Source of the DNA: Candidatus Promineifilum breve
GTDB lineage: Bacteria; Chloroflexota; Anaerolineae; Promineifilales; Promineifilaceae
Direction of reading: 5' to 3'
NCBI RefSeq assembly: GCF_900066015.1
Contig: NZ_LN890655.1
Location: forward strand, 2,954,726-3,018,725
Length of the DNA stretch: 64,000 bases
Shown: positions 16,949 to 62,786 of the stretch, piece after piece
Numbering within the stretch: the first letter of the stretch is position 1
Layout: every line of letters begins with the position of its first letter
Translations under genes and position numbers: made by a program
The notes under the pieces: model-generated
The model's input: only the letters and a program-made list of their open reading frames with translations
Told to the model about the DNA's origin: nothing
Database searches by the model: none

Positions 16949-17003
16949 AAAAGACCTGACAGGTTGCCGGTGAACGGGAGTTCATCGGCAACCTGTCAGG
17001 TCT
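16947..17003 (-). terminator. Terminator of trxB, formed by an AGACCTGACAGG palindrome (family F copy 2)
   Basis: Perfect 18-bp arms AGACCTGACAGGTTGCCG (16952-16969) and complement (16986-17003). On the minus strand five further T follow the stem (16951-16947), so it works as a terminator for trxB. It also lies right after the metalloprotease stop on the other strand. Confidence 0.75.
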
Positions 17004-30369: not shown

Positions 30370-30434
30370 AGACCTGACAGATTGCGCCCGGACTCTTGTC
30401 CGCCCGGACTCTTATCCGCCCACCTGTCAGGTCT
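30370..30434. repeat. AGACCTGACAG palindrome with inner tandem units, family F copy 3
   Basis: Outer arms AGACCTGACAG (30370-30380) and CTGTCAGGTCT (30424-30434). The interior holds a 16-bp unit GCCCGGACTCTTGTCC repeated about twice with one change. Same outer arms as 16952-17003 and 62211-62298, but a different filling. Confidence 0.8.
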
Positions 30435-57656: not shown

Positions 57657-58901
57657 TTAACGACCGAAGATAAGCGTCGCATTGTGCCCGCCCAGGCCGA
57701 AGGCGTTGGACATGACGACGCGCAGGGCGGCCGGGCGGGCGGTGTTGGGCACGTAGTCGAGGTCGCAGGCCGGGTCGGGCTGCTCGTAATTGATCGTCGG
57801 CGGGATGCAGCCGTCGCGCAGGGCCAGCAGGCAGAGGATGGCCTCCAGCGCCCCGGCCGCGCCCAACAGATGGCCGGTCATCGACTTGGTGGAACTAACC
57901 GGGATGGCCTGGGCTTGCTCGCCGAAGAGGCGCTTGATGGCCGCCGTCTCGGCCCGGTCGTTGAGCGGCGTCGACGTGCCGTGGGCGTTGATGTAGTCGA
58001 TGTCGTCGATGGTCAGCCCGCCGTCCAGCAGGGCGGCGCGCATCGACTCGGCCGCGCCCTCGCCCCGCTCGGTGGGCATGGTGATGTGGTAGGCGTCGGC
58101 GCTGCTGCCATAGCCCAGCAGTTCGCCGTGGATGGTCGCGCCGCGGGCCAGGGCGTGGTCGCGCTCTTCCAGCACCAGCAGGGCCGCCCCCTCGCTGACG
58201 ACGAAGCCATCGCGCCCGACGTCGAACGGCCGCGAGGCCCGCTCCGGTTCGTCGTTGCGTGTGCTGATGGCCCCCATGACGCCGAAGCCGGCCAGCGCCA
58301 GGGGCAGGATGCACGCCTCGCTCCCGCCGGCCAGCATCAGGTCGGCCGCGCCACGCCGAATCATAGCCGCCGCCTCGCCGATGGCGTTGTTGCCACTGGC
58401 GCAGGCGGAGTAGACGGCCAGGTTCGGCCCGCTCAGGCCGTGGGTGATGGACAGGAGGGCGGCCGGCGTGTCGGCCAGCATCATGGGCACGAAGAAGGGG
58501 CTGACGCGCCCCGGCCCGCGCTCGCGCAGTGTGTCGGCCGCCTCGTGGATGGGGTCGAGCGCGCCCATGCCGCTGCCGACGATGACCCCGGCGCGGCGGC
58601 GGGTGGCCGGGTCGTCGCTCAGACCGGCATCGGCCAGGGCCTGCTCGGCCGCGGCCAGCGCCAGTTGCGACAGGCGGGCCATGCGCCGCGCTTCCTTGCG
58701 GCCGAAGCGGGCCACCGGGTCGAAGCCCTTCACTTCGCCGGCGATGCGCGTCTCGTAGCCGGCGGCGTCGAAGAGGGTGATGGGGCCGATGCCGGAGCGC
58801 CCGGCTTTGATGGCCGCCCAGGTCGAGTCCACGTCGTGGCCGAGAGGGGTGATCGCGCCGAGGCCGGTGATCACCACGCGGCGGGGGTAGGAAGTATTCA
58901 T
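57657..58901 (-). CDS. fabF: Beta-ketoacyl-ACP synthase II
   Basis: 414 aa. It condenses malonyl-ACP with acyl-ACP. Cys-His-His triad: [23 protein letters not shown] and [13 protein letters not shown]; the N-terminal [13 protein letters not shown] and the GMGA segment are typical. A minus-strand TGCTATACT ends 8 nt before the ATG, so the transcript is probably leaderless. No other fab gene is adjacent. Confidence 0.95.
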
Positions 58902-58918: not shown

Positions 58919-59002
58919 CGACGTTGCGGTCTGGGGGTGATGTCGTTTTGAAAAAATAGGGCCGCGGCAGGCGTATTTGTTTGTGTCACCCTGTATTACC
59001 TG

Positions 59003-59011
59003 TGTTAGAAT
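59003..59011 (+). promoter_or_regulatory. Extended -10 promoter of the esterase/ATP-grasp operon
   Basis: TGTTAGAAT: TGn at 59003-59005, -10 TAGAAT at 59006-59011. A weak TTGTGT lies at 58981. It implies a leader of about 50 nt, with a strong Shine-Dalgarno sequence (GGAGAGGG) at 59048-59055 serving the ATG at 59069. Confidence 0.45.
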
Positions 59012-59068
59012 CCCCCCACTATCGTCAAGTGCGACACACGTGGTAACAGGAGAGGGAATCACAAGCTA

Positions 59069-59788
59069 ATGCATCGCGAACATCACCGTTGGTATAGCCC
59101 TTCTCTAGGGCGGGACATGGATTTGCTGATCGTCGGCCACGCCGGGGCGCGGCTGCTCGTCTTCCCCACCTCAATGGGCCGCTTTTACGAGTGGGAAGAT
59201 CGGGGCATGTTCAACGTACTGGGCGACATGATCGGCGCCGGCCAATTGCAAGCCTATTGTGTCGATAGCGTTGACGCCGAAAGCTGGTATGCCCGCTGGA
59301 AGCACCCCGGCGCGCGCGCCTGGCGCAACATCCAGTACGACCGCTATTTGACCGATGAAGTGCTGCCTCTCTCGCGCCAGAAAAACGGCAACCCGTTTAT
59401 GATCACCCTCGGCGCCAGCTTTGGCGCTTTCCACTCGCTCAACTTTGCCCTGCGCCATCCCGATCTTGTCGGCCGGGCCATCGGTCTGAGCGGCATCTAC
59501 GAGGTCAACCGCTGGACCGACGGCTATTACGACACCAACATCTACTACAACAGTCCGATTGATTATATCGGCGGTGAGAATGATTGGCGGCGGCTGGAGC
59601 TGCTGCGGCGGCAAGACATCATCCTGGCTGTCGGCCGCGATGACAGCCTGCGCAGTAGCAGCGAACGCCTCTCCGCCGCGCTGTGGAGCAAGGGCATCGG
59701 CAACGCCCTGCGCCTGTGGGACGGCTGGTCGCACGACTGGCCCTATTGGGAGAATATGATCCGGCTCTACATGGGCGGACACGATTAA
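59069..59788 (+). CDS. Alpha/beta-hydrolase esterase (COG4947-like)
   Basis: 239 aa with no signal peptide. Serine-hydrolase features: nucleophile elbow LGASFGAFHSLN, acid GRDDSLRSSSE, and His in WDGWSHDWPYWENM near the end. The beta strands DLLIVGHAGARLLVFPT and AYCVDSVDAESWYARWKHPG fit the putative-esterase fold. First gene of a set with two ATP-grasp ligases. It might release, trim or transfer their product; that is inference from context. Confidence 0.8.
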   Translation: MHREHHRWYSPSLGRDMDLLIVGHAGARLLVFPTSMGRFYEWEDRGMFNVLGDMIGAGQLQAYCVDSVDAESWYARWKHPGARAWRNIQYDRYLTDEVLPLSRQKNGNPFMITLGASFGAFHSLNFALRHPDLVGRAIGLSGIYEVNRWTDGYYDTNIYYNSPIDYIGGENDWRRLELLRRQDIILAVGRDDSLRSSSERLSAALWSKGIGNALRLWDGWSHDWPYWENMIRLYMGGHD

Positions 59789-59890
59789 AGAAATTACGAA
59801 TTAGGAATTACGAATTACGAATGGAGTATGAAGAACGCACTCTTAATTCTTAATTCGTAATTCTTAATTCATAATTCGTAATTTTTAAGA
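59788..59890. repeat. AATTACGAATTA family inverted array (H)
   Basis: Direct units GAAATTACGAATTAGGAATT ACGAATTACGAATGG on the left; ACTCTTAATTCTTAATTCGT AATTCTTAATTCATAATTCG on the right. AT-rich inverted halves within the operon, between the esterase and the first ATP-grasp gene. Only one copy in the window. Confidence 0.88.
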
Positions 59891-59899
59891 GAGGGAACC

Positions 59900-60826
59900 A
59901 TGACAAAAAAAGTTGGTCTGATAGTTGGTCGAGAGTGGTCTTTTCCGCCGGCGTTTATTGAGGAAGTGAATCGCCGCAAAGAGGGGGTGACGGCCGAGTT
60001 CGTGAAGCTGGGCGGCACCAAGATGAACGACCCCAGCGAGTACGCGGTCATCGTCGACCGCATTTCCCACGAAGTGCCGTATTATCGCTCGCACCTGAAG
60101 AACGCCGTGCTGCAAGGCACGACGGTCGTCAATAACCCGTTCATGTGGACGGCCGACGACAAGTTCTTCGAGGCTTCGCTGGCCGACAAGCTGGGCGTGG
60201 CCCATCCCAAGACGATTGTCATGCCCAATAAGGATTACGTGCCCGGTATCGTCCACGACGAAAGCCTGCGCAACCTCCGCTATCCGCTCGATTGGGACGC
60301 CCTGCTCGAATACGTCGGCCTGCCGTGCGTGCTCAAGGATGCCCACGGCGGCGGCTGGAAGGATGTGTTCATCTGTCACACCAAGGAAGATTTGTGGCAC
60401 GCCTATAACCAATCGGGCCTGCACACGATGGTCTTGCAGGAGTACATCCATTGGGATCATTACGTGCGCTGCATGTGCCTGGGGCAGGAAGAAGTGCTGC
60501 CGATGAGGTATGATCCCCACGGCCGCCGCTACGTCGTCGATCACGCCCACCTGTCGCCGGAACTGGGCGCGCGCATCGTGGGGGATTCGCTGAAACTGGT
60601 GCGGGCGCTGGGCTACGACATGAACACCGTCGAGTTCGCCATCCGCGACGGCGTGCCCTACGCCATCGACTTTATGAACGCGGCCCCGGATATGGACATC
60701 AATTCGCTGACGCCGGTCTATTTCGAGTGGGTAGTGCGCCACATGGCCGATATGGTCATCGACCTGGCCCTGAACCCGCGGCCACAGTTGACCGAGTTGA
60801 AGTGGAGCGGCCTCTTTAACGGCTAG
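59900..60826 (+). CDS. ATP-grasp ligase
   Basis: 308 aa; GAGAGGGAACC is the Shine-Dalgarno sequence. Pre-ATP-grasp Rossmann-like part (VGLIVGREWSFPPAFIEEV), central VLKDAHGGGWKDVFICHTKE with the ATP-binding Lys and Gly-rich loop, QEYIHWDHYVRCMCLGQEEV, and the metal-binding end NTVEFAIRDGVPYAIDFMNA. It should form an amide or similar bond through an acyl phosphate. Substrates are unknown. The next gene, a permuted ATP-grasp, follows after 11 nt, so the two likely act in one pathway, possibly in sequence. Confidence 0.82.
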   Translation: MTKKVGLIVGREWSFPPAFIEEVNRRKEGVTAEFVKLGGTKMNDPSEYAVIVDRISHEVPYYRSHLKNAVLQGTTVVNNPFMWTADDKFFEASLADKLGVAHPKTIVMPNKDYVPGIVHDESLRNLRYPLDWDALLEYVGLPCVLKDAHGGGWKDVFICHTKEDLWHAYNQSGLHTMVLQEYIHWDHYVRCMCLGQEEVLPMRYDPHGRRYVVDHAHLSPELGARIVGDSLKLVRALGYDMNTVEFAIRDGVPYAIDFMNAAPDMDINSLTPVYFEWVVRHMADMVIDLALNPRPQLTELKWSGLFNG

Positions 60827-60837
60827 AAGGTGCCCCT

Positions 60838-62205
60838 ATGTCTTTGACCGAAGCCATCATTACCTACCACGATCTGTTGACCGACGACGTTGCCGCCGAT
60901 TCGCAGGCGCAACTGGACGATCAAATGCACTCGCGCGGGTTGTTCTTTGGGCCGCGGCCGTTGTGCTCGGTGTTGCGTCCGCGCTTTCTGACGCCGGAGC
61001 AATACACCTACTTGCGCCACGCCATTCGGCCGCTGTTGCGCGCCTTCGAGAAGATCTCCCATCTGGCCGTGGCCGACGCCGACTTTCGCGCCCAGTTCGG
61101 CCTGTTCGATTGGGAAGAGTCGCTCATCCACATCGACCCCGGCTTCAAGGTTCATTCGCCGCTCAGCCGGGTCGACTCCTTCTTCATCACCGACGGCCAA
61201 AATATGTCGCTGAAGTTCACCGAGAACAACGCCGAAGTGCCGGCGGCTTCGGCCTACAACGACGTGCTCAACAGCGCCTTTTTCGGCTTGCGCGTCATGG
61301 GACAATTCCTGAAAACCTATTCGGTGCGCTCCATCCCCACCCGCCATAGCGTGATGCACGTGCTGCTGGAATGCTGGCGGCAATTTTCGGGCGGCAAACG
61401 GGGCAACAAGCCGCAGATCGCCATCCTCGACTGGGAGGAAGTGCCCACCCGCAGCGAGTTCGAGCTATTCGTGGCCTACTTCAAATCCCAGGGATTGACG
61501 GCGCAGATCGTCGATCCGCGCACGGTGGAATATCGCAACGGGGGTTTGTATGATGGCGACTACCGCATCGACCTCATCTACAAGCGGGTGCTCATCACCG
61601 AATTGATCGAGCGCATGGGCATCGATAATCCCGTCGTCCACGCCGTGCGCGACCACGCGGTGTGCATGGTCAACCCGTTCATCTGCAAGATTCTCTTCAA
61701 GAAGGCCGCGCTGGCCGTGCTCAGCGACGAACGCAATGCCGCCATTTATGCCGCCGACGAGGCGACCGCCATCCGCGAGCACATCCCCTGGACGCGCATC
61801 GTCGAGGAGCGGACGACGACCTATAAGGGGTTGCCGGTCGATCTGATCCCCTTTATCCAGAAATATCGGGAGCAGTTTGTGCTGAAGCCCAATGATGATT
61901 ACGGTGGGCACGGCATCGTGCTGGGCTGGCAGACCAACAGCAGCGGTTGGGAAGCGGCGCTACAGACGGCGATGGAGATACCTTACGTCGTTCAGGAGCG
62001 CGTGCCCATCCCTAACGAACCGTATCCGAGTATGGTCGACGGCAAGTTGCAGATCTACAACCGCATGTTGGACACCGCGCCGTTCACTTTCCACGGCGAG
62101 TACACCGACGGTTGCCTGACGCGCCTATCGACCGACCCCCTGCTCAATGTAACGGCCGGCGGCGGCTCCACCGTGCCGACGTTTATCGTTGAGAAGCGGG
62201 AGTAA
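60838..62205 (+). CDS. Circularly permuted ATP-grasp ligase
   Basis: 455 aa. The acidic metal-binding segment MSLKFTENNAEVPAASAYND lies near residues 123-142, in front of the Lys and Gly-rich loop FVLKPNDDYGGHGIVLGW (K350), which is the reverse of the normal ATP-grasp order. The middle (about 190-330) carries DLIYKRVLITELIERMG and a conserved VVHAVRDHAVCMVNPF. The C-terminal YVVQERVPIPNEPYPS completes the site. Family members include peptide-like and glutathionylspermidine-type synthetases. The product here is unknown. Cotranscribed with the previous gene. Confidence 0.8.
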   Translation: MSLTEAIITYHDLLTDDVAADSQAQLDDQMHSRGLFFGPRPLCSVLRPRFLTPEQYTYLRHAIRPLLRAFEKISHLAVADADFRAQFGLFDWEESLIHIDPGFKVHSPLSRVDSFFITDGQNMSLKFTENNAEVPAASAYNDVLNSAFFGLRVMGQFLKTYSVRSIPTRHSVMHVLLECWRQFSGGKRGNKPQIAILDWEEVPTRSEFELFVAYFKSQGLTAQIVDPRTVEYRNGGLYDGDYRIDLIYKRVLITELIERMGIDNPVVHAVRDHAVCMVNPFICKILFKKAALAVLSDERNAAIYAADEATAIREHIPWTRIVEERTTTYKGLPVDLIPFIQKYREQFVLKPNDDYGGHGIVLGWQTNSSGWEAALQTAMEIPYVVQERVPIPNEPYPSMVDGKLQIYNRMLDTAPFTFHGEYTDGCLTRLSTDPLLNVTAGGGSTVPTFIVEKRE

Positions 62206-62210
62206 AAGTT

Positions 62211-62298
62211 AGACCTGACAGGCGGGCGCACTCCCGTGCGCCCACTCCCGTGCGCCCACTCCCGTGCGCCCACTCCCGTGCGCCCACCTGTCAGGTCT
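62211..62298. repeat. AGACCTGACAGG palindrome around four 14-bp tandem units, family F copy 4
   Basis: Outer arms AGACCTGACAGG (62211-62222) and CCTGTCAGGTCT (62287-62298). Inside, the unit CTCCCGTGCGCCCA is repeated four times exactly (62231-62286). It follows the stop of the permuted ATP-grasp gene by 5 nt and may end that operon. Confidence 0.9.
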
Positions 62299-62309
62299 TA
62301 GAGATATGT

Positions 62310-62483
62310 TTAACTACCCGGCACGGTAATCATGGACAGGATCATGCTGATGACGATCATCACGCCGACGATGATCAGCAAAATCCGCGTCCAATTGATA
62401 TTCTTCTTCTTGGCCGCGGCTCCCTTGGTCGATTGATGCGACCGTGTGGCGGGTGTGCGGCGCTTCGGTTGCGACTTGCCCAT
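62310..62483 (-). CDS. 57-aa small membrane protein
   Basis: Basic N-terminal half (MGKSQPKRRTPATRSHQSTK, then AAAKKKNINWTR) followed by one C-terminal helix ILLIIVGVMIVISMILSM. A purine-rich GGAGAAGAAG precedes the ATG. A promoter core TGCTATACT at 62562-62570 gives a leader of about 70 nt. Looks like a tail-anchored small protein with a cytoplasmic basic tail; no family recognised. Longer upstream starts would pass through the leader and are rejected. Confidence 0.6.
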   Translation of the reverse strand: MGKSQPKRRTPATRSHQSTKGAAAKKKNINWTRILLIIVGVMIVISMILSMITVPGS

Positions 62484-62786
62484 ACTGTTCTTCTTCTCCG
62501 AGTCATTGATTTCAGCTCGCGTTGCCCCCATCGAGGGGCCACGCCGGCTGTGCAACGCCGAAGTATAGCAAAAACAGCCTCGCCCGCCCACGGCCCGCGC
62601 CTCTCCCGCGTGATTCCTAACCCGATTCTATAGCGATCAAAAGAGGAACGCGCCGCTCATAGAGCGGCGCGCCGGACGCGGTTGAGCCTGGAATGTCGCG
62701 TCCTGCCCCTTTTTTGGTTATGATTGTTGCCTGATTAATGCGACCGGCCTGGGATGAATCGGGCCGCGCAATACACGATCTAACGT
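62484..62786. other. Intergenic region between two divergent genes
   Basis: Holds the promoter for 62310 (62562-62570, minus strand). It also holds a perfect 9-bp hairpin GCGCCGCTC/GAGCGGCGC with loop ATA (62650-62670) and, near 62705-62735, CCCCTTTTTTGGTTATGATT. No gene or riboswitch recognised. The hairpin has no T-tract. Confidence 0.5.
62562..62570 (-). promoter_or_regulatory. Extended -10 promoter of the 57-aa gene
   Basis: Minus-strand TGCTATACT (-10 62562-62567, TGn 62568-62570); same core as in the fabF and GT39 promoters. No -35 element seen. Confidence 0.45.

Follow-up and report, generated by a model that had tools for sequence, protein, structure and literature searches.

An esterase gene and two ATP-grasp ligase genes of Candidatus Promineifilum breve recur with a carboxylate-amine ligase gene in Chloroflexota

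The est, ag and cp genes

A stretch of 64,000 nucleotides from Candidatus Promineifilum breve (contig NZ_LN890655.1, positions 2,954,726 to 3,018,725 of a 5.03-Mb assembly), hereafter the window, carries three consecutive forward-strand genes that are here termed est, ag and cp. The first (59069-59788; open reading frame (ORF) of 239 amino acids) encodes an alpha/beta-hydrolase of the PF00756 esterase family, the second (59900-60826; 308 amino acids) a RimK/D-Ala-D-Ala-ligase-type ATP-grasp ligase and the third (60838-62205; 455 amino acids) a circularly permuted ATP-grasp protein with the fold of glutathione synthetase, glutathionylspermidine synthetase and Cp1B. ORF coordinates and intergenic gaps, 111 nt between est and ag and 11 nt between ag and cp, bear out a preliminary description of this DNA as holding three co-directional genes with the ligase genes 11 nt apart. 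The trio recurs in other genomes far beyond chance, and a gene for a fourth enzyme, a GCS2/YbdK-type carboxylate-amine ligase, is found beside it in many of them.

The est product reaches the gathering score of PF00756 (35.9 bits, cut-off 22), and both S117 of its GxSxG motif and H222 are conserved in 38 of 38 relatives, with the candidate aspartate D192 present in 33. For this protein as for those of ag and cp, the catalytic or ATP-site roles given to conserved positions are assigned by analogy with known members of the families. Homologues of est with 35-46% identity were found on Rhizobiaceae, Peptoclostridium and Thiodictyon plasmids. Of three annotated plasmid neighbourhoods examined, two have an ATP-grasp gene directly ahead of the esterase gene. 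Because est homologues directly follow a different ATP-grasp gene (PF13535) in Peptoclostridium (L153), Pararhizobium (L154) and a member of the Chloroflexota (L137), esterases of this type may be habitual partners of ATP-grasp enzymes.

The profile built on ag matches D-Ala ligases, RimK and carboxylases, which places the protein in the ATP-grasp superfamily, although its scores lie below the cut-offs of all families matched. The comparison with RimK suggested in the preliminary description holds in the sense of distant kinship; the protein scores 35 bits (9e-9) against rimK_fam, far short of the 143.4-bit family cut-off. Among its relatives, 37 of 44 match rimK_fam at E<=1e-5 and 13 of 44 match LysX_arch, and the residues K146 (43/44), E181 (42/44), D257 (42/44) and N260 (43/44) are conserved. 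In the window genome (G000) a second ag paralogue with 38% identity lies at L122:6899-7822 (G000:C1:3513916-3514779) and has a counterpart in the genus-mate (L123:6098-7021), both in a different setting with no cp, est or GCS2 match there. Distinct from ag is also a separate RimK-family alpha-L-glutamate ligase (L185:479-1402; G000:C1, about 1.131 Mb) scoring 213 bits against the same 143.4-bit cut-off.

The cp protein scores 13.5 bits (E 0.034) against PF14403, for which the cut-off is 32, and the window sequence by itself gave no match in the PDB. Its relatives match the same family in 44 of 47 cases at E<=0.01 (best 4e-13), and the E-x-N, K, D site is conserved in them (E129, K350 and D353 each 47/47; N131 46/47). 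The preliminary description had called the catalytic motifs of all three proteins intact, and conservation in relatives of S117 in est, K350 in cp and the further site residues confirms this. Profile searches matched the putative GspS 3N6X (2e-8) and, weakly, Cp1B (5e-4), YjfC (0.004) and YgiC (0.011), with the acid-site consensus EYNAESP of the cp group aligned to EYNADTP of YjfC. An AlphaFold model of cp was mediocre (predicted local distance difference test score, pLDDT, 63, with stretches round the ATP-site lysine <50). With this model all 28 Foldseek matches at E<=0.001 were permuted ATP-grasps, namely Cp1B, glutathione synthetases, YgiC and GspS. The 26 top VIA-align entries (Z 13.5-15.9) were likewise all of the permuted ATP-grasp fold, the next entry falling to Z 6.7, and were headed by Cp1B (15.9), yeast glutathione synthase (15.8) and E. 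coli GspS (15.6). Profile and model together assign cp to the permuted ATP-grasp fold of glutathione synthetase, GspS and YgiC (PF14403/PF04174/PF03738). The likeness to glutathionylspermidine synthase proposed earlier is upheld at the level of fold, to which eukaryotic glutathione synthetase and Cp1B fit equally well.

A fourth gene and recurrence of the set in Chloroflexota

The closest named relatives of the locus are in Promineifilum metagenome-assembled genomes (MAGs), two contigs of which (L031 and L033) carry est, ag and cp at 83-92% identity whilst on a third (L034) the three proteins are 79-86% identical and est is cut. To place the genes in the phylum, 301 genomes drawn from Chloroflexota were surveyed, matches being counted at E<=0.001 and then subjected to a strong-score cut; contigs L031-L041 stand outside the 71-genome counts given below. 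At the E-value threshold cp was matched in 79 genomes, ag in 82, est in 90 and the GCS2-type ligase, with all its paralogues, in 115, and strong presence was recorded in 71, 74, 67 and 68, respectively. The cut removed 8 weak matches for cp and 8 for ag (among them those of three genomes of family f16; a split copy in G163 and a contig-edge copy in G172 were kept). For est, 23 were removed, comprising the f16 trio (104-108 bits) and 20 weaker matches, one of which (G285) is a genuine cassette est cut by a contig edge, and for GCS2, 47, those of at least about 396 bits being kept together with a split copy in G239.

All four genes are present in 60 of the 301 genomes. For every pair of genes, 60-68 genomes have both and 224-227 have neither, giving Fisher p values of 4.5e-46 to 2.6e-56; since these ignore shared ancestry and depend on cut-offs placed at score gaps, they are descriptive rather than a test. 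Somewhere in the 71 cp-containing genomes ag is found in 68, est in 63 and GCS2 in 65. All 71 cp neighbourhoods were read for genes on the same strand separated by gaps of <1 kb, and the resulting counts are lower bounds because contig ends cut some cassettes. By this measure cp is clustered with ag in at least 66 genomes, with GCS2 in at least 44 and with est in at least 33. Rare adjacency elsewhere and loss of ATP-binding residues, which the preliminary description had named as grounds for abandoning a shared pathway, were thus not what was found, the residues being kept. That description proposed a dedicated pathway of two ligases and a hydrolase; a set with several ligases is indeed what recurs, but the GCS2 member of the cassette had been missed.

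The clusters comprise 26 with four genes, 18 with ag-cp-GCS2, 15 with ag-cp, 7 with est-ag-cp as in the window and 5 with cp alone, and in four more of the 71 genomes est lies beside the cluster on the opposite strand. At most loci the matches to cp and GCS2 either overlap, by up to 19 nt, or are separated by no more than about 120 nt; at three loci the distance is 268, 837 and 1,697 nt. Gene order is variable in family f25 (cp-GCS2-est-ag or cp-GCS2-ag), and in G037 and G262 the four genes are on four different contigs. In family f23, 15 of 16 genomes with cp keep ag and cp together and est and GCS2 apart, with all present. The eight commonest ORF clusters around cp correspond to the four families of the module or to their antisense shadows, and the next family occurs in 8 loci. 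No carrier, precursor peptide, exporter, nonribosomal peptide synthetase (NRPS) or envelope family is widely shared by the cp neighbourhoods, in which ORFs of at least 70 amino acids were clustered. Sequence distances correlate strongly among ag, cp and GCS2 (r 0.91-0.96) and less so between est and the others (0.68-0.75), values that carry no control for shared ancestry and count one contig twice (L033 and L042 apparently being the same).

The recurrent gene just 3' of cp in other genomes encodes a GCS2/YbdK-type carboxylate-amine ligase of the gamma-glutamylcysteine-ligase family, the profile of which matches YbdK (1R8G; 7.5e-67) and then plant glutamate-cysteine ligases (2.4e-5). Of its GhExE motif, which PMC2588565 gives as a signature of carboxylate-amine ligases, the G, E and E are invariant (G11, E13 and E15 each 36/36). 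The window genome has a single PF04107 gene (G000:C1:3881945-3883099; 193.9 bits, cut-off 21) located 865 kb from the est-ag-cp cassette; this unlinked gene would supply the step missing from the cassette. Its genus-mate G144 has one GCS2 match. In both genomes the unlinked GCS2 gene is immediately preceded by an M17 aminopeptidase gene (L063:4291-5841 in G000 and L157:9160-9975 in G144). M17 leucyl aminopeptidase was considered as a fifth partner and dropped; it adjoins GCS2 in these two genomes of one genus, and in G037 a pgk-like gene separates it from a nearby cp. In three f23 genomes (L135, L158 and L161; Pfam-checked in L135) an acyl-CoA dehydrogenase gene is located 3' of the unlinked GCS2 gene.

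Proposed pathway and alternative products

With a probability of roughly 0.55, we interpret est, ag and cp as three of the four genes of a conserved module in which the ligases build one small peptide amide of gamma-glutamyl type and the hydrolase edits or recycles the product. In such a scheme the GCS2-type ligase would form an amide on the carboxylate, probably the gamma-carboxylate, of glutamate or a similar acid. The RimK-like ag and the permuted cp enzymes would each extend it by another amino acid or amine through acyl-phosphate chemistry, the three ATP-dependent ligases thus acting in succession on a single small molecule. The est esterase would then cleave an ester, a thioester or an activated form of the product, either removing a bound group or allowing recycling, and its casting as a trimming enzyme is a guess. 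The end product probably remains in the cell as a small peptide amide, given that the neighbourhoods have no carrier, precursor peptide, exporter or NRPS family widely in common.

Known systems offer partial parallels. In plants, glutathione is made by a GCS2-type ligase and a glutathione synthetase of permuted fold. Glutathione and homoglutathione synthesis in plants and yeast therefore resembles the module in pairing a GCS2-superfamily ligase with a permuted ATP-grasp synthetase fold, whereas the module adds a RimK-like ligase and an esterase, and cp is about 10% identical to glutathione synthetases. YbdK (1R8G) is a relative of the GCS2-type ligase of the module and no cooperation of YbdK with a pair of ATP-grasp enzymes is known. 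The peptidyl-polyamine synthetases GspS, YgiC and YjfC of E. coli share with cp the permuted ATP-grasp and the aligned acid-site motif, but cp has no fused amidase and is embedded in a four-gene set with GCS2-type and RimK-like ligases. Fungal Cp1B of E-64 biosynthesis is the top fold match of cp, in a tie (Z 15.9; 359 residues superposed at 5.1 A, with 13% identity); according to PMC12568646 it is paired with an ANL-type amide synthetase and acts on epoxysuccinate, neither of which belongs to this locus. The alpha-E/COG2308/DUF2126/Anbu peptide-tag system is characterized by alpha-E and transglutaminase-linked partners; at the loci clustered here no family outside the module exceeds 8 occurrences.

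Several observations weigh against a single four-enzyme pathway. The specificities of the ligases and the identity of the product are predictions from sequence. The GCS2 gene of the window organism lies outside the cassette, and a GCS2 tree was rejected as proof that this copy is of the cassette type: the organism's own copies were not placed with that type and were left on an unresolved basal branch accompanied by long-branch warnings. NCBIfam NF010039 was likewise discarded as a discriminator of the cassette type, the model being matched by the organism's own GCS2 but also by 6 of 6 unlinked paralogues. The strong-score cut-offs were placed visually, once the gaps between scores had been seen, and the co-occurrence p values leave phylogeny out of account. 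A single member only was found in 14 of the 83 genomes with any member. The structural evidence is that of the mediocre cp model, with low-scoring stretches about the ATP-site lysine, and a model of ag (pLDDT 56) was too poor and was not used. Gamma-glutamyl transpeptidase (GGT) was searched, together with BshC and GshB, in a subset of 80 genomes from the 301 (40 of the 71 cp-positive genomes and 40 cp-negative genomes chosen for COX1 and completeness) and was not enriched (35/40 cp-positive and 31/40 cp-negative, p 0.38). Finally, three genomes of family f16 carry divergent ag and GCS2 genes side by side without cp, so the module is not indivisible; this pair could belong to a related pathway. 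Two of these loci (L125 and L126, the third being L124) also have an est-like gene at a distance of about 7-8 kb, and the interval contains one further ATP-grasp-type ORF in L125 and three in L126.

As a special case of the peptide-amide pathway, the module could make a low-molecular-weight thiol of Chloroflexota analogous to glutathione, which is unlikely. GCS2 would here join glutamate and cysteine, cp and ag would extend the product to a thiol of three or four parts, and the hydrolase, in the manner of S-formylglutathione hydrolase, would act on its S-acyl forms. Two points speak against this at the outset: cysteine is an assumed substrate of GCS2, and the gamma-glutamyl:cysteine ligase activity reported for YbdK is weak. 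In favour, PMC6336425 reports novel thiols, with glutathione absent, in a number of bacteria, Chloroflexus aurantiacus among them, and a genome assigned to C. aurantiacus J-10-fl (G118) holds all four genes, with identities of 58% for ag, 46% for cp, 55% for est and, measured against the L043 protein, 60% for GCS2. BshC of bacillithiol synthesis (PF10079) was found in 0 of the 80 genomes and in 3 of 14 control genomes, an absence that is nonspecific as it extends to the 40 cp-negative genomes. No strong GshB was found in the 80 genomes. PF02955 was matched in 15 of them, 10 above the cut-off, with a best score of 61 bits in the window genome itself, and of the genomes matched 10 were cp-positive and 5 cp-negative, out of 40 each (p 0.25). 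The two best of these proteins, from the window genome and G128 and the only 2 of the 15 scanned, are RimK-family members; their scores against the glutathione synthase models, 63-82 bits, fall far short of cut-offs that are all >=272. The absence of GshB likewise holds in genomes without cp, and GGT, as noted above, is not enriched. PF04107 is present also in Haloferax volcanii, and gamma-glutamylcysteine in halobacteria is the subject of a title cited in PMC7278568. COX1 was found in 71 of 71 cp genomes and in 182 of 230 others (p 7e-7), an association confounded by phylogeny and obtained by comparing the 71 genomes by eye with a 253-row list. The fuller proposal, that the four genes provide biosynthesis and an S-acyl hydrolase for a new glutathione-like thiol which is that of C. 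aurantiacus and is used across respiring Chloroflexota without bacillithiol or canonical glutathione genes, is slightly more doubtful again.

The likeness of cp to YjfC, YgiC and GspS in profile, fold and the EYNAESP/EYNADTP alignment also raises the prospect of a peptidyl-polyamine or amino-acid amide conjugate, similar to glutathionylspermidine or to the products of YgiC and YjfC, with the hydrolase as a cleaving partner comparable to the fused amidase of GspS. Annotation of some distant plasmid relatives of cp as glutathionylspermidine synthase family is in keeping with this. However, cp aligns over nearly its whole length to GspS residues 207-618, the synthetase part, and has no fused N-terminal amidase, est is a PF00756 alpha/beta-hydrolase, and the neighbourhoods have no further family widely in common, which together make a conjugate of this kind improbable.

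Enzymes of the RimK and LysX groups modify proteins or a carrier protein, and the distant resemblance of ag to both (37/44 relatives for rimK_fam, 13/44 for LysX_arch) would suit ligases that tag the end of a protein, or an envelope precursor, with amino acids in a reaction reversed by the hydrolase. Among ORFs of at least 70 amino acids beside the module, none of the families found widely is of a carrier, small-protein or envelope kind, and such tagging seems quite unlikely. A secondary-metabolite cluster with a diffusible product, as might be suggested by distant cp homologues in biosynthetic-looking plasmid clusters of Streptomyces (L118) and Selenomonas (L120), is very improbable given that the module recurs across many Chloroflexota families, that its parts persist unlinked and that exporter or tailoring genes do not accompany it widely.

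If the four genes do form one peptide-amide pathway, its product may be a small peptide or thiol made by enzymes resembling those that make glutathione. The folds of the enzymes are known; the set itself is apparently a multi-ligase, NRPS-free peptide-amide pathway. No description of it was found among the titles and abstract openings listed from the open literature, most subscription papers lying outside this, and an earlier mention is possible in the amidoligase survey of Iyer et al. 2009, the likeliest place for one. Nor is the set described in the part of PMC4431377 available. For the question of which small thiol or redox buffer serves Chloroflexota, the module offers four candidate genes present in C. 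aurantiacus. Whatever the product, it would represent a multi-ligase pathway recurring in a fifth of the sampled Chloroflexota genomes and a source of three new predicted amide-forming biocatalysts.

Flanking elements and relatives outside the phylum

The nearest plausible genes on both sides of the trio, at 57657-58901 (FabF-like by reading of its sequence) and at 62310-62591 (a 93-amino-acid ORF), are on the opposite strand, and the transcription unit therefore probably consists of est, ag and cp alone. No PADLOC defence-system model matched any of the four module proteins at E<=0.01, and no RNA element reached its gathering score between 58700 and 62500. A candidate extended -10 promoter (GTGTCA-17 nt-TAGAAT, with TG ahead of the second hexamer) lies upstream of est at 58983-59011 on the forward strand. 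It is one of 2 promoter-like matches in the region, where shuffled sequences gave 1.5 +/- 1.3, and alone is not above chance; a TATGTTAGAAT-like string is found upstream of est in L031 and L035 as well, with weaker versions in L032 and L033.

The terminator-like repeat reported at the end of the trio did not stand up as a dedicated terminator. The site (62211-62298) is a dispersed palindromic repeat in which 4.2 copies of a 14-bp tandem repeat are enclosed by AGACCTGACAGG arms, and these arms recur in the window at 16952-17003 and 30370-30434 (one arm mismatched). Three terminator-like sites were called in the region, none of them at 62211-62298, with 3.3 +/- 1.7 expected.

Outside Chloroflexota, a contig titled Armatimonadetes carries cp and GCS2 together with a cut ag, and cp was found in 5 of 43 genomes of that group. 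A plasmid search with ag gave no match, and plasmid relatives of cp are distant only (23-30% identity), some being annotated as glutathionylspermidine synthase family. On the Selenomonas plasmid pSRC2 (L120) the distant cp is accompanied by a glutamate-cysteine ligase family gene, a MATE transporter, an alpha/beta hydrolase and an NlpC/P60 protein; on a Sinorhizobium plasmid it adjoins a carboxylase-like ATP-grasp gene, and on a Streptomyces plasmid (L118) it lies inside a larger cluster.

The intergenic region between est and ag is occupied at 59790-59888 by facing (inverted) arrays of an AT-rich 7-bp repeat, and all 8 matches in the window of the 13-mer tested fall within these arrays.

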